Below the pieces are notes generated by a model, which was not told where the DNA came from, made no database searches, and saw only the letters and a list, made by a program, of their open reading frames with translations. Shown here in pieces: positions 4,079 through 13,043 of a stretch of 64,000 nt of DNA. Origin of the DNA: Phytoactinopolyspora mesophila (GTDB lineage Bacteria; Actinomycetota; Actinomycetes; Jiangellales; Jiangellaceae). Numbering within the stretch: the first letter of the stretch is position 1; each line of letters starts with the position of its first letter. A program made the position numbers and the translations under genes. Location of the stretch: contig NZ_WLZY01000004.1 of the NCBI RefSeq assembly GCF_010122465.1, forward strand, positions 186,001 to 250,000. Reading direction: 5' to 3'.

Positions 4079-4882
4079 ATGGCAACGGGCCAGGGAGACC
4101 GGACCGGTCGCAGAGTAGGCGAATTGGCAGCGGCGACCGGACTGACCGTCCGCACGCTGCACTACTACGAGGAGATCGGCTTGCTGGTGCCCTCGGCGCG
4201 TACCTACGCCGGACACCGGCTCTACGACGACGCCGACGTGGCCCGGTTGTACCGGATTTGCGTGCTGCGACGGTTGGGCCTGCCACTTGTTGAGATCGGC
4301 CGGGCGCTCGAGGAACCGGCCTGGAATCTGCGCGCCGCGATGACAGCTCACCTCGGTGAACTCGACCGCCGGCTCGAGGCGATGGGCCGGCTTCGCTCCC
4401 GCCTCGCTGGTCTATTGGGCTCGATCGGTACTGGGGACTCTCGGCTCACCCACGACCTGCTCACCACCGTTGAGGAGATGACCATGCTTGACACCGCTGT
4501 TCAGGGACGGATCATGTTGCTGGTGTACGAGGACATCGGGGCTGCTCACGACTGGCTGGTCCGGGTCTTCGGCCTGGGGCCGGGCCGGGTCGACCGCAAT
4601 GATGAGGGCCGGGCTGTGCACGCCGAGTTGCAGGCGGGTGACGGTGTCATCTGGCTTCACCAGGAGCAGGATGACTGGGGGCTTGGCTCGCCCCAGTCGG
4701 TGGGAGCCGCGACCGCATGCGTGGCCGTGATGGTCGACGACGTCGATGCCCACTACCGCCACGCCGTGAGCGAGGGCGCGAGTGTCGTGCACGAGCCAGT
4801 CGATCAGCCGTACGGATACCGCGAGTACAGCGCTCGTGACCTCGAAGGCCACCTCTGGTCGTTCATGAAACCACTCGACTAG
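4079..4882 (+). CDS. MerR regulator fused to VOC (glyoxalase-like) domain
   Basis: A 267-residue fusion. Residues about 10-80 form a MerR helix-turn-helix and wing (VGELAAATGLTVRTLHYYEE, then GHRLYDDADVARL), followed by a helical linker that probably makes the dimer. From about residue 140 the sequence is a VOC/glyoxalase fold (IMLLVYEDIGAAHDWLVRVFG, ending DLEGHLWSF). VOC domains bind or modify small molecules, so this half is probably the effector sensor. Its architecture and promoter match the broken gene at 831-1642, so the two are paralogues. No metal-ligand set was verified. Confidence 0.85.
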   Translation: MATGQGDRTGRRVGELAAATGLTVRTLHYYEEIGLLVPSARTYAGHRLYDDADVARLYRICVLRRLGLPLVEIGRALEEPAWNLRAAMTAHLGELDRRLEAMGRLRSRLAGLLGSIGTGDSRLTHDLLTTVEEMTMLDTAVQGRIMLLVYEDIGAAHDWLVRVFGLGPGRVDRNDEGRAVHAELQAGDGVIWLHQEQDDWGLGSPQSVGAATACVAVMVDDVDAHYRHAVSEGASVVHEPVDQPYGYREYSARDLEGHLWSFMKPLD

Positions 4883-4945: not shown

Positions 4946-5019
4946 GCAGGACGCTACAGTTCGTCCTGCGGGCCGTGGCTCATGGCGCTCACTCTGCAGG
5001 ACGCTGTGTTACGTCCTGC
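4946..5019. repeat. Double-hairpin intergenic repeat, copy A
   Basis: Two 24-bp hairpins of identical design, GCAGGACG-N8-CGTCCTGC, lie at 4946-4969 and 4996-5019, separated by 26 bp. Loops are CTACAGTT and CTGTGTTA. A second copy at 21186-21259, inverted relative to this one, has the same stems, the same 8-nt loop length and the same 26-bp spacing, and its spacer shares the 11-mer GCGCTCACTCT. Arms and spacing are conserved while loops vary, as in REP/REPIN-type elements. The second hairpin lies inside the 3' end of the K+ channel gene. Confidence 0.8.
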
Positions 5020-5432
5020 TCATCGGCGTGCGAGCCGCGTTTGTGCCGCGACGTAGAGCGTTTCTTGTGCGCCCGCCTGCCCATCAGCGAGTTGGCCAAC
5101 GACGTGGCGAGGGCAACGAACAGGCCCACTGCCAGCAGCGCGTACAGCATCGTGAACACCTTGGCGATCGGCTGCTCCGGCGTCAGATCGCCGTAGCCGA
5201 TCGTCAGGCCCGTGACGACGGAGAAGTAGGCGCTGTCCAGCACCGACCAGCCCTCCACCAGTGTGTAGAAGATCGTGGCGCTGACCAGCAACGTGACCAA
5301 TGTGACGGTTACGCCCCGGAAAGCACGATCGCGCCACGAGATGCGCACCGCCGCGATGAAGCGGCGAATCATCAACAGAAGGCCCAACATTCCTGCAAGA
5401 TACGGCAACCAACGACCGGTGGCGGCGGTCAA
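4989..5432 (-). CDS. Two-TM potassium channel (ion_trans_2)
   Basis: A small membrane channel of about 147 residues. A hydrophobic segment (about 42-62) precedes the pore loop with the K+ selectivity filter TIGYGDLTP, followed by a second TM helix (about 92-112) and a basic cytoplasmic tail. This is the KcsA-like 2TM plan, which assembles as a tetramer in the membrane. The start is uncertain: TTG 5432 is used here, and an ATG at 5390 is possible. The last ~10 residues are encoded by the second hairpin of repeat A, so the repeat has replaced or extended the native C-terminus. Divergent from the small gene at 5465. Confidence 0.85.
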   Translation of the reverse strand: MTAATGRWLPYLAGMLGLLLMIRRFIAAVRISWRDRAFRGVTVTLVTLLVSATIFYTLVEGWSVLDSAYFSVVTGLTIGYGDLTPEQPIAKVFTMLYALLAVGLFVALATSLANSLMGRRAHKKRSTSRHKRGSHADEQDVTQRPAE

Positions 5433-5464: not shown

Positions 5465-5659
5465 ATGCTGACCGTTGGTGCCATCCGCGAGTACATCCGG
5501 GGCCTTCCAGACGACACTCCGGTGGTGCTGGATGTCCACCTGGAACATCAATACCTGCGTATCGAGAACCTGAACCTGACGACCGCACAGGATGCGACGC
5601 TCGGCGGCGATCCGCATGAGGGCATCGAGTTGCAGTTCTTCTGGGAGGCGACTGGTTGA
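5465..5659 (+). CDS. Small DUF6225-like protein
   Basis: A 64-residue protein beginning MLTVGAIREYIRGLPDDTPV. The pattern TVGxLR...GLPDDTPV is characteristic of small actinobacterial proteins of the DUF6225 type, whose function is unknown. Upstream in-frame starts at 5444 (TTG), 5453 and 5456 exist; 5465 is chosen because it places TVG at the family-typical position. It is the first gene of a likely operon with the MerR-clamp fusion (34 bp downstream) and the MFS exporter. Confidence 0.6.
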   Translation: MLTVGAIREYIRGLPDDTPVVLDVHLEHQYLRIENLNLTTAQDATLGGDPHEGIELQFFWEATG

Positions 5660-5693
5660 CCCTCAACCTGGTCGAGGTGCCAGGGTGCATGGC

Positions 5694-6779
5694 GTGGACG
5701 ACGACGAACTGCGCGGCATCGGCGACATGGCGCAGGCCAGCGGACTGAGCGTCAGCGCCCTGCGCTTCTACGATCGTGCCGGGCTGTTGATTCCTGCCGT
5801 TGTGGATCCAGCAACCGGCTACCGCCGATACTCCGCCGACCAGCTTGCGTCGGCGCGGCTGTTGGCCGGGATGCGTCAAGTGGGCCTGCCGCTCGCCGAG
5901 ATTGCCGCCGTACTGGAGCAGCGTTGCGACGTGGCGGCAGCCACCAGTGTGCTTGACGCCCACGTCCGCCGGCTGGAAGACCGTTTGGACGACGCCCGCC
6001 GTGAACTGCGAAGGCTACGTTCCCTCCTGGATTCGGAGCAGGGGGAGCCGTCGCGCTGGCCCGACGAGTCGGTCAGCGTCGACGTCGACGCCCGAGCTCT
6101 GGCCCGGGCCCTCGACGCGATCCGTTTCGCGGTGGCTGACGCTTCGCGGGAGCCACGTCTCAACGGTGCACTGATCGAATGCGAGAGCTCCGCGGTCCGG
6201 ATCGTCGCTACCGACCGTTATCGCCTGACGGCATGCGAGGTAGTGGCGTTTCAGCGGGCCGGCACGCGGATGAGCGTGGTCGCGCCGGCGGGGTTTCTCG
6301 ACGACGCGCGAGCGCTGCTGGACCACGACGGCGACGCGACCATTGACCTGGACCGCGGGCGCATCGCGATCACGGCTGCCGCCGCCCACGTCAGCGCCGA
6401 CTGCATGGTCGATGCGTTCCCCGATTATCGGCAGATCCTGCGCCGGCACGCAGGCGGCAGCCGTTTCGTCGTCGATGCCCAAGACCTTCGCGCGCATGTG
6501 AGCTCGGTGACGGCCCGGCCCTTCTACCGGGAATCCGACGGCGTGCGGACGACGGTGATCACTTTGAGGGCCCACTCAGACGGGACGTTCGAAGTGACGG
6601 CAAATCAGCCGGAGACCGAGACAGACGTCATTCTCGATCGAAGCTTCCTACTCGAGGCGATAGACGCTTGCGCAGCGGAGCGGATCACGCTGGAGATCGC
6701 CGGGCCGCTGGCACCCGTGGCGCTACGTCGTCCCGACGACGAGCAGTTCGTGTCGTTGCTGATGCCCGTGCGGCCATGA
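5694..6779 (+). CDS. MerR HTH fused to DNA polymerase III beta-clamp domains
   Basis: A 361-residue fusion. Residues about 5-75 are a MerR helix-turn-helix and wing (GIGDMAQASGLSVSALRFYD, TGYRRYSADQL) followed by a coiled-coil (about 80-115, RRLEDRLDDARRELRRL). Residues about 125-361 align with domains II and III of the DnaN sliding clamp: LNGALIEC...VRIVATDRYRL, VDAFPDYRQIL, FLLEAIDAC and the terminal LMPVRP, which parallels the VMPMRL end of E. coli DnaN. Domain I is absent. Residues lining the clamp's peptide-binding pocket are partly kept (ATDxxRL, MP at the end). GTG 5694 is used because it opens the HTH just after a stop-free leader. Its stop overlaps the MFS start (ATGA at 6776-6779), so the exporter is probably a target or partner. 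Function unknown. Confidence 0.85.
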   Translation: MDDDELRGIGDMAQASGLSVSALRFYDRAGLLIPAVVDPATGYRRYSADQLASARLLAGMRQVGLPLAEIAAVLEQRCDVAAATSVLDAHVRRLEDRLDDARRELRRLRSLLDSEQGEPSRWPDESVSVDVDARALARALDAIRFAVADASREPRLNGALIECESSAVRIVATDRYRLTACEVVAFQRAGTRMSVVAPAGFLDDARALLDHDGDATIDLDRGRIAITAAAAHVSADCMVDAFPDYRQILRRHAGGSRFVVDAQDLRAHVSSVTARPFYRESDGVRTTVITLRAHSDGTFEVTANQPETETDVILDRSFLLEAIDACAAERITLEIAGPLAPVALRRPDDEQFVSLLMPVRP

Positions 6780-8017
6780 TGGCTGGGCAGCGCTCGGCGC
6801 CGCCGGCGTCGTCACCGCACGACTCCCACGTCCCCGCTGCGTATTGGCTCTGGTTGTCCGGTGCCGCGTGCTCGATGCTCGGCACGCAGGTCATGGCCTT
6901 CGCGATGGCGTGGAGCGCCACCGGCCAGGGCGGGCTGTTCGCCGGGCTGGTGCTCACCATGGTGGTGCTGCCCAGGATCCTGTTCTCGCTGGTGGGTGGT
7001 GCCATCGCGGACCGTGTCGGTGCGTGGCCGGTGCTGACCGGCGCGGCCGCGGTCATGCTCGCCCTGATGCTGTGCGTGGCGGGTGTTGCGTCACAGGCCG
7101 GTGACGCGCCCGCATTGCTGCTCGTAGCCGCGCTGGCGATCGGCCTGGTTGATGCTTTCCATTTCCCCGCGTCAGCATCGGTGCCAAGGCTCCTGGTCGC
7201 CGACGGCGGGCTGGCCAGGGCGGCGTCAGCCCGGCAGATCGTGTTTCAGCTCAGCGGCTTTGTCGGTGCTCCGCTCGGTGGGCTGCTCGTCGCGACGGCC
7301 GGGTTGGCCGCTGCGGCCCTGGCCAATGCGGCGGCCTACAGCGTGATGCTGGCGATGCTGATCGCGCTCAGCCGTCGTGGCCTGGCCCAGCACCACCAGC
7401 CAGACATCCAAGCCGATCCCTGGTGGCGCCGGTCCGCCGACGGACTCAAACTCGCCGCGCAAGACGCCCTGCTGCGCCCGGCTTTGCTGCTCATCATCGG
7501 GGCGGCGGCGTTCCTGCTGCCGCTCTCGTCACTTCTCGTGCCGTTACTCGCCCGGGAGCGGCAATGGCCGCCCGCTTCGGCCGGCGTCGTGGTCGGCGCG
7601 ATCGCCTTCGGTACGGTAGCCGTGGCGGGCATTGTCACCGTCTCCGGCGCGCGCACCCGCCCTGGGTACACCGCGGCGACGGGGCTACTGGTGGCGGCGG
7701 CCGGTGTCACGGCATTGGCCTTGGCCCCCACCTTCGCGGTGGCCCTCCCTGCCGGGGCGGTGGCAGGTGTCGGCACTGGCCTGTTCACCACACACGTGGT
7801 TCCGCTGATCCTCGGCAACACACCCCGGACACATACGGCGCGGATCCAGGCCGTGGTACTTCTCGCCCAGTCCTTGCCGCTGCTGGTGACCAACAACGGC
7901 CTCGGCGCACTCGTCGACCTGGCACAAGCCAGCACGGTGATCGCTATGTGCGCGACTGGCCTGGTGATATGCACGTTAGCGGTGCTGGCGGCATCGCCGA
8001 CGCTTCGGCGCACCTAG
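6776..8017 (+). CDS. MFS transporter
   Basis: A major facilitator protein of about 413 residues with roughly 12 hydrophobic segments, of the EntS/MFS_3-like exporter type. The loop 2-3 signature appears as GGAIADRVGAWP. ATG 6776 overlaps the stop of the MerR-clamp gene by four bases (ATGA), which implies translational coupling. Longer frames reaching back to 6668 would overlap the clamp gene and lack support. The context suggests efflux of the compound sensed by the MerR module. Substrate unknown. Confidence 0.85.
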   Translation: MMAGQRSAPPASSPHDSHVPAAYWLWLSGAACSMLGTQVMAFAMAWSATGQGGLFAGLVLTMVVLPRILFSLVGGAIADRVGAWPVLTGAAAVMLALMLCVAGVASQAGDAPALLLVAALAIGLVDAFHFPASASVPRLLVADGGLARAASARQIVFQLSGFVGAPLGGLLVATAGLAAAALANAAAYSVMLAMLIALSRRGLAQHHQPDIQADPWWRRSADGLKLAAQDALLRPALLLIIGAAAFLLPLSSLLVPLLARERQWPPASAGVVVGAIAFGTVAVAGIVTVSGARTRPGYTAATGLLVAAAGVTALALAPTFAVALPAGAVAGVGTGLFTTHVVPLILGNTPRTHTARIQAVVLLAQSLPLLVTNNGLGALVDLAQASTVIAMCATGLVICTLAVLAASPTLRRT

Positions 8018-8019
8018 TC

Positions 8020-9513
8020 TCAGGACGGCAGAGTCTGTTCCTGCAGCTGCGCGAGTTGGTGGACGTGCGGGCGGGTCGCCGGGTAAAGCTCCAGGTAGGT
8101 CTCGTACAGGCTGTCGTAGACGTCCCGAGTGGAATCGTCCGGCGTCACCGTATGGCTGATCCTCGACCAGTTGGTCCCCGGTTCCAGCAACCCGACGCCG
8201 ATACCGGCCAGCAGCGCATCGCCGTAGCTGGCGCCGATGGTCTCCTTCGGGATGGCTTGCTCGCGCCCGCTGACATCGCTGACGATCTGCGTCCACAGCG
8301 GGCTCTGCGTGCCGCCGCCGACCGCGATCAACCGGGCCGGCGGGCCGTCGTCGTCCAGCAGTTCCAGAATCTGGCGGGTACCGAAGGCGATGCCCTCGTA
8401 GGCAGCCCGGAACAGGTGCCCGCGGCCGTGCCGCAAACTGAGACCGGCGACGACGCCTCGCGCCCGTGAGTCGAAATGCGGTGTCCGCTCCCCCGCGAAG
8501 TACGGCAGCATCATCAGCCCCTCAGACCCGGGCGGCACCTGCGACGCCTCCTCAACCAGCTGCTCGTAGGCGACACCGCCGACGAGCTCCTGCAGCCACC
8601 CGGTGAGGCTTCCCGACGTGGCCATCCCGGCGGCCAGTGTGTACGTGCCGGGTTCCACCCCGGCCGTGGTCCAGAGCACCGGATCGGCTCGGGGCTCGGT
8701 GAGCAATCCGACGAAGAACGCGGTGGAGCCGTACATGACCATCAGATCGCCCGGCTCGCGGACCCCGGCGCTGAACGCCTCGGCCCAGGCGTCGACCGTG
8801 CCCGCCGAGACCGGTGTGCCTTCGGCCAGCCCGGTTTCGGCCGCGGCCCGGCCGGTGACCTTGCCGACTACCTCACCGGACCAGGCCAGTTGCGGCAGCG
8901 GTAGACCACCGGCGACCTCGTCGGCCCACTCCCGGTTCCAGTCCCGGGCATGGATGTCGTACATCGGATCACATTGGCTGGCGGTGAGGTGGTCGAGCAC
9001 GTACTCGCCGGAAAGCCGCGCGGTGATGAACGAACTGGAGCTGTACCACCGCGCGGTGCGCTGCCACGACGCTGGCTCGTTGCGTCGGGCCCACAGCAAT
9101 TTGGGCCCGACGGCCTGGGAAGACAATGCCTTGCCGCAGCGCCGCAAGACTTCATCCGCGCCGAAGCGATCGGTCAGTCCCTCGATCTCCGCCGTGGCGC
9201 GGGTATCGATTCCGTAGAGAATCGCCGGGCGTACGGGCTGGACATCCGCGGTGCACAGCACCAGGCACGGTCCCACCCCGCTGACGCAGACCCCGGCGAT
9301 GCGCGCCCCGCTGCTGCGTCCGACTAGTTCGCGGGCGAGGCTGGTGACGTCGTTCCACCACACGGCCTCGGCGTCCACCTCGGCCCAGCCTGGCCGCGGC
9401 AGCGACATCGCGTGTGAGCGAGCGGCGGTGGCCACGATCCGGCCGTCGGGCGTGGACAGGACCCCTTTGCTGCTGCCGGTTCCCATGTCGATACCGAGGA
9501 GAAGCTCGTCCAT
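8020..9513 (-). CDS. FGGY-family carbohydrate kinase
   Basis: An ATP-dependent sugar or polyol kinase of 497 residues. The N-terminal phosphate-1 motif is GIDMGTGSSKG, and the C-terminal lobe has AVGGGTQSPLWTQIVSDVSG, which is the adenosine-binding region of FGGY kinases. It resembles xylulokinase-type members but the substrate cannot be read from sequence. ATG 9513 (MDELLLGIDMG) is preferred; a GTG at 9549 would add 12 residues. It is the last gene of the polyol cluster, 110 bp after the isomerase gene, and stops 2 bp from the convergent MFS gene. It may phosphorylate another pentose or tetritol brought in by the same importer. Confidence 0.87.
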   Translation of the reverse strand: MDELLLGIDMGTGSSKGVLSTPDGRIVATAARSHAMSLPRPGWAEVDAEAVWWNDVTSLARELVGRSSGARIAGVCVSGVGPCLVLCTADVQPVRPAILYGIDTRATAEIEGLTDRFGADEVLRRCGKALSSQAVGPKLLWARRNEPASWQRTARWYSSSSFITARLSGEYVLDHLTASQCDPMYDIHARDWNREWADEVAGGLPLPQLAWSGEVVGKVTGRAAAETGLAEGTPVSAGTVDAWAEAFSAGVREPGDLMVMYGSTAFFVGLLTEPRADPVLWTTAGVEPGTYTLAAGMATSGSLTGWLQELVGGVAYEQLVEEASQVPPGSEGLMMLPYFAGERTPHFDSRARGVVAGLSLRHGRGHLFRAAYEGIAFGTRQILELLDDDGPPARLIAVGGGTQSPLWTQIVSDVSGREQAIPKETIGASYGDALLAGIGVGLLEPGTNWSRISHTVTPDDSTRDVYDSLYETYLELYPATRPHVHQLAQLQEQTLPS

Positions 9514-9623
9514 GTCCACCACCACGATCGTCGGGGCAGGCTGCCCCACATCCTAGGCAGCGGTGGCGGCGGATGGGAGAGGCGTATCACGAGCGGATAC
9601 ACGCGAGGTTGCGGCGACAGTGC

Positions 9624-10112
9624 TCAGGAGTGCACGTGCTCACCGCCCTCTCCGGCCTCGAAGCGGGAGATGATCGCCACCTTGCTCGCGGACGCCGACG
9701 CGGTGTCGAACTGGAGGTCCAGCCATTCCGACACCAGCAGGCGGGCCAGCTCGGGCCCGACGACCCGGGCACCGAGCGCAAGGACCTGACAGTCGTTGGA
9801 CAGCACGGAGCGTTGCACCGAGTAGCTGTCGTGGGCGACGGTGGCGCGGACCCCGGGGACCTTGTTGGCGGCGATGGCCATGCCGATGCCGGTTCCGCAG
9901 ACGAGCACGGCGCGGTCGGCGTCGCCTCGGGCCACCGCCTCGGCTGCGGCGAGGCCGACGTCGGGATAGGTGCGGTGGTCCTCGGAGTCGTGGACGCCGA
10001 GGTCGCTGACGTCGACGACCCGTCCGTCAGTGCGCAACGTGTCGGCGATCAGGTCCTTGAGCTGCAGTCCGGCGTCGTCAGCGCCGACGACGATCCGCCA
10101 CGCATGGGTCAT
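9624..10112 (-). CDS. derI: RpiB/LacAB-family sugar-phosphate isomerase, DerI-like
   Basis: A 162-residue RpiB-type isomerase: GADDAG near the N-terminus, the active-site Cys in VLVCGTGIGMAIAANK and the following VPGVRAT. In Mycobacterium smegmatis the RpiB-family DerI converts D-erythrulose 4-phosphate to D-erythrose 4-phosphate, next to a DhaK-type kinase and EltD. The same partners are here, so that reaction is preferred to ribose 5-phosphate isomerisation. The start overlaps the kinase stop by four bases (ATGA, 10109-10112), so the two are coupled. The name rests on context plus family. Confidence 0.82.
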   Translation of the reverse strand: MTHAWRIVVGADDAGLQLKDLIADTLRTDGRVVDVSDLGVHDSEDHRTYPDVGLAAAEAVARGDADRAVLVCGTGIGMAIAANKVPGVRATVAHDSYSVQRSVLSNDCQVLALGARVVGPELARLLVSEWLDLQFDTASASASKVAIISRFEAGEGGEHVHS

Positions 10113-11878
10113 AGCTGTGCTCCTGTGGTTTCGGGGGCGGCGGGTGTGCCGGAGCGCTCCCCGGCGAAGTGGGCGGCAAGGGCCGCCGCCGAGGCGGCGA
10201 GGGAGACCGCGCCCGGGTCGGGTGTGCCGTCGCTCCGGTCGCCAAGACGGGCTGCTCTGCCGCGCCTGGCCGTCATCTGGGCGGTGGCGGCGGCGGCCGA
10301 CTGCGCGGCGTCTGCTGCATGAGCCCAGGCAGCGCGGAGGTCAGCCCCGTCGGCCATCGCCGAGCGGAACGTTTCCACCAGTGGGTGCAGCGCGTCTACG
10401 AGTGTTTTGTCGCCGGGCTGGCTCTGCCCGAGCCGGACGACGGCTTCCTCTGCCGCGGCGAGCGCGTCAGCGAGCAGCGTTGCCTCGAGGCCCTCCGGGC
10501 CGGCCGGCTCGATCAGCCGCCCTACGGTCGTCAGTCCGGCACCCCAGAGGGCTCCCGACGCTCCGCCGGCCGCATCGGCGAACGCCATGCCTGCGGCGAT
10601 CAGGACGGCGCTGGCATCCGGGCCGGCGCGGCCGGCCGCCTCAACCGCCGCGTCCATGCCACGGGTCATCGTCGTTCCGTGATCGCCATCGGCGGCGACC
10701 GAATCGAGCGCTCCCAGGTGGTCCTCCAGTTCCTTCAAGCGGCCCGCGACGACGGCAAGACCGGCGCGCGCAGCTCGCCCGGACGGCGTCAGCTCCATTT
10801 CCGGGAATCCGCTGCTCTGCTGGTCCTCCGCGCCCGTGGCGCCCAGCGGCGCGGCCTGGCGCCCGTCGAGCGGGAGCCGCTCGGTGCGGATGTAGCCGGG
10901 CGCGGTGGCCGGAGCCGACAGCAGGCCCTCGAGCTCGTCGTCAGTCCACACCAGGGTGACCGAGCAGCCGGCCATGTCCATCGACGTCACGAACTCCCCG
11001 ACCTCAGGTTCGGTCAGGGAGACGCCGGCTGCGTCGAATCGGCCGGCCAGCGATCGGTAGAGGACGAACAGTTCTTCGTACTTGACCCGGCCAAGGCCGT
11101 TGACCAGGATCCGGGCGCGAGTGGCGCCGGACGGGCGTTCGGCCAGCAGCCGGTCGACCAGCAGGCCTGCCAGCTCGTCCGCACTGGAGCGGGGCATGGT
11201 CGAGATCCCTGGTTCGCCGTGGATGCCGAGCCCCAGCACCATCGAACCTTCCTCGACGGTGAACAGCGGCTCCGAGCGGCCGGGCACCATGCAGCCGTCG
11301 AACCCGACGCCCACGGTGCGGCAGCGATCGTTGCAGTGCCGGGCGATACGTTCCACCTCGTCGAGTGAGTCACCGCGGTGCGCGGCCGCCGCGGCGGCGC
11401 GGAAGACGAAGAAGTCGCCGGCGATGCCGCGGCGTTCGCCGATGCGCTCGGGCGGCGCCGACGCGATGTCGTCGGTCACCAGGACGATCCGGGCGTCGAT
11501 GCCGTCGCGTGCTGCGGCTTGGTCGGCTGCGAGCCCGAAGTGCATGACGTCGCCGGCGTAGTTGCCGAACAGCATCACGACACCAGCCCCACCGTCCACC
11601 GCCCGGATGGTGCGATAGACCTGCTCGGCCGAGGGGCTGGTGAAGATGTCGCCGCACACCGAGGCGTCGGCGAGGCCGGGGCCGACGAGGCCCGCGAAGG
11701 TCGGGTAGTGTCCCGACCCGCCGCCGACGATCGTCGAAACCCGTCCCGGCGCCGGTGCGGTCACCGACGCGACGGCCGAGGTGTCGGGGACGCGGCGAAG
11801 GATCCGGGAGTAGGCGGTGACGAGCCCGTCGATCGCCTCGTCTTTGAATGCCCGCTCGGTGTTGTACACGTAGGTCAT
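10109..11878 (-). CDS. derK: DhaK-DhaL fused kinase, D-erythrulose 4-kinase-like
   Basis: A single-chain dihydroxyacetone-kinase family enzyme of 589 residues. The DhaK domain (about 1-330) has GGGSGHYP, GNYAGDVMHFGLA and GLGIHGEPG, whose His is the one that binds the substrate carbonyl covalently. A linker leads to the ATP-binding DhaL domain (about 365-580) with ADGDHGTTM, GGASGALWG and GDKTLVDAL. ATG 11878 is chosen for its GGAGG site just upstream. With EltD and a DerI-like isomerase in the same operon, D-erythrulose is the likely substrate; L-erythrulose (LerK) is the main alternative. Confidence 0.85.
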   Translation of the reverse strand: MTYVYNTERAFKDEAIDGLVTAYSRILRRVPDTSAVASVTAPAPGRVSTIVGGGSGHYPTFAGLVGPGLADASVCGDIFTSPSAEQVYRTIRAVDGGAGVVMLFGNYAGDVMHFGLAADQAAARDGIDARIVLVTDDIASAPPERIGERRGIAGDFFVFRAAAAAAHRGDSLDEVERIARHCNDRCRTVGVGFDGCMVPGRSEPLFTVEEGSMVLGLGIHGEPGISTMPRSSADELAGLLVDRLLAERPSGATRARILVNGLGRVKYEELFVLYRSLAGRFDAAGVSLTEPEVGEFVTSMDMAGCSVTLVWTDDELEGLLSAPATAPGYIRTERLPLDGRQAAPLGATGAEDQQSSGFPEMELTPSGRAARAGLAVVAGRLKELEDHLGALDSVAADGDHGTTMTRGMDAAVEAAGRAGPDASAVLIAAGMAFADAAGGASGALWGAGLTTVGRLIEPAGPEGLEATLLADALAAAEEAVVRLGQSQPGDKTLVDALHPLVETFRSAMADGADLRAAWAHAADAAQSAAAATAQMTARRGRAARLGDRSDGTPDPGAVSLAASAAALAAHFAGERSGTPAAPETTGAQL

Positions 11879-11912
11879 GGTCGGCCTCCTTCGGGCCAGG
11901 TGTCGTGGGTCG

Positions 11913-13043
11913 TCATCGCAGCCGTTCACCCGATTCGGGGTCGAAGAGGTAGACGCGTTCCGGGTGGGCGTCGAAACGGATCGTGTCGCCATGGCTCCAG
12001 TGGTCGCCCGGCGCCGTCTGCACCGTGATCGGCGTGTCCGTACCGGGCAGAATCACGGTGGCCTGGCCGAACTCGAGCAGGTTCTCGTAGACCCTGATCT
12101 CGCCCCGCAGAACCGTTGCTTCGGCGCCGATGCCGGTCCGGCAGTCCTGCGGGCGTACACCCACGGTGACGCGCTGGCCGTCTGCCGCGGATCGTGCGGC
12201 GGTCAGCAGCTCACCGGACTGCCCGACCTGCACGGTGACCCGGTCACCATGGGCCCGTACGGTGCCTTCGATCAGATTGATCTTCGGCTCGCCGACGAAG
12301 TCGGCGACGAACAGGTTGGCCGGATCGTCGAAGATCTCGTCGGGCGTCCCGAACTGCCGGATCACGCCGCCGTCCATCACGGCCATCCGGTCGGCCAAGC
12401 TCAGGGCTTCGAGCTGGTCGTGCGTGACGACGATCGTCGTGTACCCGAACTCACGCTGCAGAACCTTGAGTTCCCGACGCACCCGCTGCCGCTGCGAGGC
12501 GTCGAGGTGTGACAAGGGCTCGTCGAGCAGCAGCACAGGTGGGTTGCGGATCAGCGCCCTGGCCAGTGCGATGCGTTGTTTCTGCCCGCTGGAAAGCCCG
12601 GCCGGGCGCAGGTCGAGCAACTCCGTCATGCCGAGCCGTTCGGCCAGCACGTCGACCCGTTGACGCACGTCCTTGGCCTTGCGCGCCTTCAAACCGTAGG
12701 CAAGGTTCTCCCGCACGGACAACGGCGGATACAGTGCGTAGCTTTCGAACCCGACACCGATGTTGCGCCGCCGGGCGGGCAGGTCGGCCACGGAGGCGCC
12801 GCCGATCCGGATGTCCCCGGAGGTCACCGTCTCCAGACCGGCGATCATCCGTAACGTTGTGGTCTTGCCGCACCCGGACGGACCAAGCAGCGCCACCATC
12901 TCACCTGGCTCGATCTCCAAGTCGAGCCCGCGAACCGCCCGGAAGGACTCACGTCCGCGGCTCTCGTAGGTCTTGTACAAGCGGTCCAGCACCAGGCTTT
13001 GTGCCGTGCTGGCTCCGGAGAGAACGTCGTTCACCGCTGTCAT
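11913..13043 (-). CDS. Carbohydrate ABC importer ATPase, UgpC/MsmK-like
   Basis: A 376-residue MalK-type ATPase: Walker A GPSGCGKTT, signature LSSGQKQR, Walker B VLLLDEP, and a C-terminal TOBE-like regulatory domain (about 245-370). Two departures from the norm are visible: the Q-loop Gln is Glu (GFESYALYP) and the signature reads LSSGQ. The partner ATPase (13040-14206) has the same Q-loop change. Its start overlaps that gene's stop by four bases (ATGA). The pair probably forms a heterodimer that powers the two permeases downstream in the same operon. Confidence 0.9.
   Translation of the reverse strand: MTAVNDVLSGASTAQSLVLDRLYKTYESRGRESFRAVRGLDLEIEPGEMVALLGPSGCGKTTTLRMIAGLETVTSGDIRIGGASVADLPARRRNIGVGFESYALYPPLSVRENLAYGLKARKAKDVRQRVDVLAERLGMTELLDLRPAGLSSGQKQRIALARALIRNPPVLLLDEPLSHLDASQRQRVRRELKVLQREFGYTTIVVTHDQLEALSLADRMAVMDGGVIRQFGTPDEIFDDPANLFVADFVGEPKINLIEGTVRAHGDRVTVQVGQSGELLTAARSAADGQRVTVGVRPQDCRTGIGAEATVLRGEIRVYENLLEFGQATVILPGTDTPITVQTAPGDHWSHGDTIRFDAHPERVYLFDPESGERLR

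Follow-up and report, generated by a model that had tools for sequence, protein, structure and literature searches.

Why a DNA-binding regulator should carry part of a replication clamp is the question raised by a two-gene operon of Phytoactinopolyspora mesophila, located in the window (the whole 64,000-nucleotide stretch of DNA that was analysed). The first gene (5694..6779, forward strand, GTG start) encodes a 361-aa protein in which a MerR head is joined to sliding-clamp domains. The second (6776..8017, same strand) encodes a 413-aa MFS exporter (PF07690, 1.5e-19; TIGR00900) and is translationally coupled to the first. Its ATG at 6776 overlaps the stop codon of the fusion gene (6777-6779), as an earlier note on this DNA had observed, and co-transcription is borne out. 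About the operon, a second MerR-head protein, fused to a glyoxalase/bleomycin-resistance-type domain, is encoded 0.8 kb upstream of the fusion (4079-4882, forward strand), and the gene divergent from the operon (4989-5432, reverse strand) encodes an ion channel of two helices (PF07885) whose potassium filter reads TIGYGD. Convergent with the exporter lie genes for an FGGY carbohydrate kinase, an RpiB-type isomerase and Dak1/Dak2 dihydroxyacetone kinase (8020-11992, reverse strand), a row that looks like a sugar-alcohol catabolic operon.

The fusion of a MerR head to clamp domains II and III, in the absence of domain I, is confirmed by profile searches and structure prediction. The winged-helix DNA-binding head (5715..5921, forward strand; residues 8-76; PF00376/PF13411) is matched in Pfam by MerR at residues 9-46 (2e-13) and MerR_1 at residues 9-76 (4e-13). 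It is followed by a long helix (5931..6038; residues 80-115), the predicted MerR-type dimerisation coiled coil according to the secondary structure of the AF2 monomer model, and, beyond a low-confidence hinge at residues 117-120, by the clamp half (6063..6776; residues 124-361). The latter matches DNA_pol3_beta_2 at residues 131-244 (9e-14) and, slightly below the curated Pfam cut-off, DNA_pol3_beta_3 at residues 301-360 (2e-5). Residues 124-360 align only to positions 122-366 of the DnaN model TIGR00663 (E=3.7e-23), and clamp domain I is therefore absent. In a phmmer search against the PDB, one half of the protein retrieved beta clamps (7.6e-16) and the other MerR drug regulators, BmrR among them (5e-10), and no TipAS domain was matched in Pfam or NCBIfam. 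The AF2 model, built from 78 family members, has a mean pLDDT of 91.5 and a pTM of 0.67, and its top Foldseek matches are all sliding clamps. The domain reading of the earlier note, made from the sequence alone, thus stands, as does its view that the protein cannot form a ring, domain I and the ring interface both having been lost. The genome of the window organism holds a single copy of the fusion and one ordinary DnaN.

The domain pair recurs in relatives: a MerR head is present in 79/80 sampled homologues, with a Pfam match (PF00376/PF13411) in 77/78 family members. The exception (locus L115 of genome G526) is a 252-aa half-clamp without a MerR head, adjoining a full-length DnaN paralogue. 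Fusions were found in 14/394 genomes of the class sample, spread over five families, and in 124/298 genomes of family f19. This family is almost certainly Streptomycetaceae, since the named matches on plasmids are from Streptomyces atratus, Streptomyces sp. and Embleya. The plasmid-borne copies, where annotated, are called merely 'MerR family transcriptional regulator', and no description of a MerR-clamp fusion was found in the open-access literature. In a tree of the fusions, those of the window's own genus, of f37, of f40/f48 and of f19 form separate groups, indicating that the fusion is old. A contig search with the window protein alone gave only matches to the clamp half, at 19-26% identity, in Chloroflexi and others; these were taken as ordinary DnaN.

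To compare the two functional surfaces of the clamp half, pocket positions were taken from PMC11139829 and 78 fusions were aligned with the DnaN of E. coli and 30 DnaN from actinobacteria. Mean conservation among the fusions is 0.83 at the 18 pocket positions and 0.61 at the remaining positions. At the sites equivalent to T172, G174, H175, R176, P242, M362 and P363 of E. coli, 76-78 of the 78 fusions are identical to actinobacterial DnaN, in which the G174 position is Arg and the H175 position Tyr; at the N320 and Y323 positions variation is limited to N/D and F/Y. The window protein retains T173, R175, Y176, R177, L178, P243, M357, P358 and R360, and the pocket segments picked out previously, ATDRYRL (172-178), DAFPDYR (240-246) and LMPVRP (356-361), are all present. 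By contrast, the seven domain III positions of the ring interface have a conservation of 0.42 in fusions versus 0.90 in DnaN; permutation gave p=5e-5 for the comparison of conservation. The hydrophobic pair I272/L273 has become mostly V/R (A/R in the window protein), and every aligned fusion has lost, by deletion, the DNA-contacting basic residue (Lys/Arg) of position K198. Judged from this alignment, selection has retained the ligand pocket and released ring formation. Such conservation would fit a peptide or protein ligand equally well as a small molecule. The R365 residue of E. coli DnaN contacts mycoplanecin (PMC10817943), and its position is Ala in 17/78 fusions, which counts against the antibiotic-sensing account proposed below.

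Upstream of the fusion gene lies a predicted MerR-type promoter/operator (5656..5686, forward strand) that is missing from the earlier note. Its -35 box, TTGACC (5656-5661), and -10 box, CAGGGT (5681-5686), are separated by a 19-bp spacer (5662-5680) enclosing the palindrome CTCAACC-T-GGTCGAG (5662-5676). A generic promoter scanner was blank at 5656 because it allowed spacers of 16-18 bp only. The GTG start follows the -10 box by 7 nt, and the mRNA is probably leaderless. A palindrome search upstream of fusions recovered CTCGA-N5-TCGAG, the core of the longer palindrome CTCGACC-N-GGTCGAG, at 46/79 loci, against 1.4 in background windows. The aligned fusion promoters (TTGACCCTCGACCTGGTCGAGGNNCCAGRGT) share a -35 box TTGACC, a 19-bp spacer with the palindrome and a -10 box CAGRGT, normally about 7 nt from the start codon. 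This promoter/operator is found at 79/79 MerR-bearing fusion genes, 73 of them on the first pass; at the remaining 6 it sits downstream of a wrongly called start. One fusion promoter has an 18-bp spacer variant (L129, genome G462). Within the window no site other than that at 5656-5686 has fewer than 4 mismatches, and the window organism's genome has one strong operator site, that of the fusion-MFS operon. Over-long promoter spacers with an internal palindrome are a hallmark of MerR activators (PMC1526738). Given this architecture, the fusion very probably regulates itself, and the window exporter along with itself.

The operator was then used to define the regulon in relatives. In f19, 134/298 genomes hold an operator site, among these 121 of the 124 fusion-bearing genomes; four genomes first scored as operator-only hold a fusion after all, and others hold remnants. 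In most f19 genomes the site is single and is the fusion's own promoter. In one f19 lineage an ECF sigma-factor-like gene precedes the fusion on the same strand, often with a gap of 34 bp (L118, L120, L124, L125, L133, L135, L108, L112). Family f37 presents a wider set of targets, with sites in 47/121 genomes. Of 90 sites read there, 87 precede five gene types: the fusion (40), a TPR-like protein (about 155 aa; 17), MFS exporters (16), YunG (PF24585; 8) and dnaN (6). The residual three precede a MerR gene without a clamp half (one) or have no assigned gene type (two). A reversed-pattern control in the f37 genomes gave about 10 matches. One further dnaN behind the operator was found in genome G203 of this family, and the TPR-like target also occurs in a member of another family (G390).

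Clamp genes other than the fusion thus lie under the same operator. In two f19 genomes it stands before an extra DnaN: in G526 (0 mismatches) upstream of the half-clamp plus DnaN paralogue, and in G503 (1 mismatch) 73 bp upstream of a DnaN paralogue (L206). In genus g64 of f37, the dnaN operator site is just past the dnaA stop codon and before the DnaA boxes (L266, L267, L238), so that the predicted transcript to dnaN would cross oriC. Such a promoter of the MerR type, placed at oriC on its dnaA side and predicted to read through the DnaA boxes to dnaN, was noted at L210, L237, L238, L266, L267, L270 and L273, all of one f37 genus. No operator was found near dnaN of the window organism, nor a YunG gene in its genome. 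Separately, at L214 and L215 (G039, G261) a second DnaN is divergent and has changes in its pocket (P363 to S, R365 to K), with no fusion operator nearby. The YunG model (pLDDT 94.7) has invariant Cys38, His68 and Asp80, which suggested a drug-destroying cysteine hydrolase; the idea was dropped, as no PDB match with E<=0.001 was obtained. At L255 one ORF under the same operator encodes a YunG domain and, after it, a NUDIX-like stretch.

MFS genes are frequent neighbours of regulators in general, which counts against adjacency to an exporter as evidence of a functional link. Conservation of the exporter neighbour, proposed previously as a check, holds within the window's own genus (G000, G002 and a remnant in G004) but not as adjacency elsewhere: an MFS gene lies directly beside the fusion in only 2/80 loci read. 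As a sole test, adjacency would have rejected the link; the operator search restored it, with the shared operator extending to other families. In G404 of f19 the operator (0 mismatches) lies upstream of an MFS exporter that shares 46% identity with the window's across 391 aa. Across families, homologues of the window exporter under the same operator are those at L207 (46% identity), L220, L244 and L305; in f37, 3 of the 16 operator-linked MFS exporters are homologues of it. In G004 the operator, the start of the fusion and the end of the MFS gene are kept around an internal deletion; from this remnant it follows that the fusion-MFS operon predates the window's species.

Given the retained pocket, and given that exporters, dnaN and spare DnaN genes lie behind the operator, we propose, with a probability of roughly 0.6, that the fusion is a one-component MerR-type activator that senses clamp-pocket antibiotics through a mimic of their target DnaN. 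The affinity of griselimycin for the DnaN pocket, which lies between domains II and III, is sub-nanomolar, and cells become resistant to it by amplification of the dnaN/ori region (PMC5694481). A second DnaN gene in the griselimycin and mycoplanecin clusters is regarded as a self-resistance gene (PMC10817943). Building on the fusion, the retained pocket, the lost ring interface, the promoter, the shared operator and the regulon, all of them read from sequence, we infer that a fusion dimer would occupy the palindrome of its own promoter, inside the over-long 19-bp spacer. The pocket would then bind a small molecule that fits it, possibly a cyclic depsipeptide resembling griselimycin or mycoplanecin, or some other inhibitor of the clamp, and the coiled coil would relay the ligand-induced change to the MerR head. 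The DNA would thereby be underwound and RNA polymerase would begin at the start codon. The output would be more sensor, which may double as a drug sponge, and the MFS exporter, which would export the ligand; in relatives, extra DnaN and two small proteins (YunG, TPR-like) would be added.

The closest working model for the fusion is TipA, a MerR drug sensor that regulates its own gene and sequesters its drug (PMC7762955). The layout proposed for the fusion is that of TipA-class and BmrR-type sensors: a MerR head, a predicted coiled coil and a C-terminal ligand domain, probable autoregulation via a palindrome in an over-long spacer, a sensor that may double as a drug sponge, and an exporter or a sponge as output; the MerR-less half-clamp of G526 might be the counterpart of TipA's MerR-less form. 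In place of the TipAS or GyrI-like fold of these sensors, however, the fusion has two sliding-clamp domains as its effector part, and the regulon includes the mimicked target DnaN. MerR metal-resistance regulons also have a palindrome in a 19-20 bp spacer and pair a regulator with a transporter, but the fusion lacks their metal-binding C-terminus and its sensing domain mimics a protein target. With DnaN (TIGR00663) the fusion shares domains II and III and the clamp-motif pocket, as seen in both Foldseek and HMM matches, whereas domain I is missing, the ring interface is replaced, the K198 basic residue is deleted and a DNA-binding head is added. Like GriR and MypR, the extra clamp that G526 and G503 have under the fusion's operator might serve as protection; GriR and MypR themselves are full-length clamps in biosynthetic clusters and not regulators, whereas the window fusion has no domain I. 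The full-length second DnaN typical of GriR/MypR resistance is seen only in the paralogues that G526 and G503 have under the operator.

The same pocket is the usual docking site of all clamp-motif partners (PMC11139829), and its conservation would equally suit the idea of the earlier note that the protein reads the replication state. The clamp half would then bind proteins with the clamp motif (QLxLF), for instance DnaE, ImuB or DnaE2, when they are free, and the head would report this to transcription. The dnaN gene is indeed in the regulon of one genus and would be transcribed through oriC there. Among the 90 f37 sites, though, dnaN is the only replication or repair gene, the regulon consisting mainly of exporters and small proteins, and clamp-motif proteins are always present, which would mean constant competition. 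Exporters, dnaN and a spare DnaN look more like antibiotic protection, leaving replication-state sensing as the weaker, improbable account, although the clamp half may still bind clamp-motif proteins. Somewhat less probable still is a sensor of a protein or peptide that attacks the clamp, be it a phage inhibitor, a SocB-like toxin or a competitor's peptide: mutations giving resistance to SocB fall in the same clamp region (PMC5694481), and the extra DnaN and decoy half-clamp of G526 would titrate an attacker, but drug-type MFS exporters are ill-suited to a protein ligand and the fusion had no match among 50,697 phage records. Promiscuous pockets are frequent in MerR sensors such as TipA (PMC7762955), but that the clamp half is a mere scaffold or general multidrug pocket in a regulon serving other drugs is similarly unlikely, for it is precisely in the clamp-motif pocket that residues are retained, the other surfaces having diverged, and the operator targets include DnaN genes themselves.

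Against sensing of clamp-pocket antibiotics stands the fact that neither YunG nor the TPR-like target is known to be connected with clamp inhibitors. In the f19 majority and in the window genome the sole strong site is the own promoter, and protection there would come from the sensor itself or from the linked exporter; in f19 genomes with a self-regulated gene only, the sensor would need either to soak up the drug as a sponge or to work through sites so weak that they escape detection. The broader proposal, for which we consider the odds about even, is a widespread actinobacterial resistance regulon in which the clamp would have been recycled as the sensor of antibiotics that target it. This mimic would switch on exporters, half-clamps acting as decoys, additional clamps and, in a single genus, dnaN itself from a promoter reading through oriC.

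The strict 31-bp operator defines a regulon that is open to search by anyone, and the fusion with its own promoter would be a ready reporter with which to screen for new anti-tuberculosis clamp inhibitors. The regulon also raises the question of why a putatively drug-responsive promoter should lie at oriC on the side of dnaA. If the proposal is true, the fusion would be a one-component sensor whose receptor was copied from the drug's own replication target, and a stimulus would be assigned to the uncharacterised YunG and TPR-like families. Natural clamp inhibitors would then be predicted wherever the fusion occurs, and clamp-binding natural products would be far commoner in soil than the few known.
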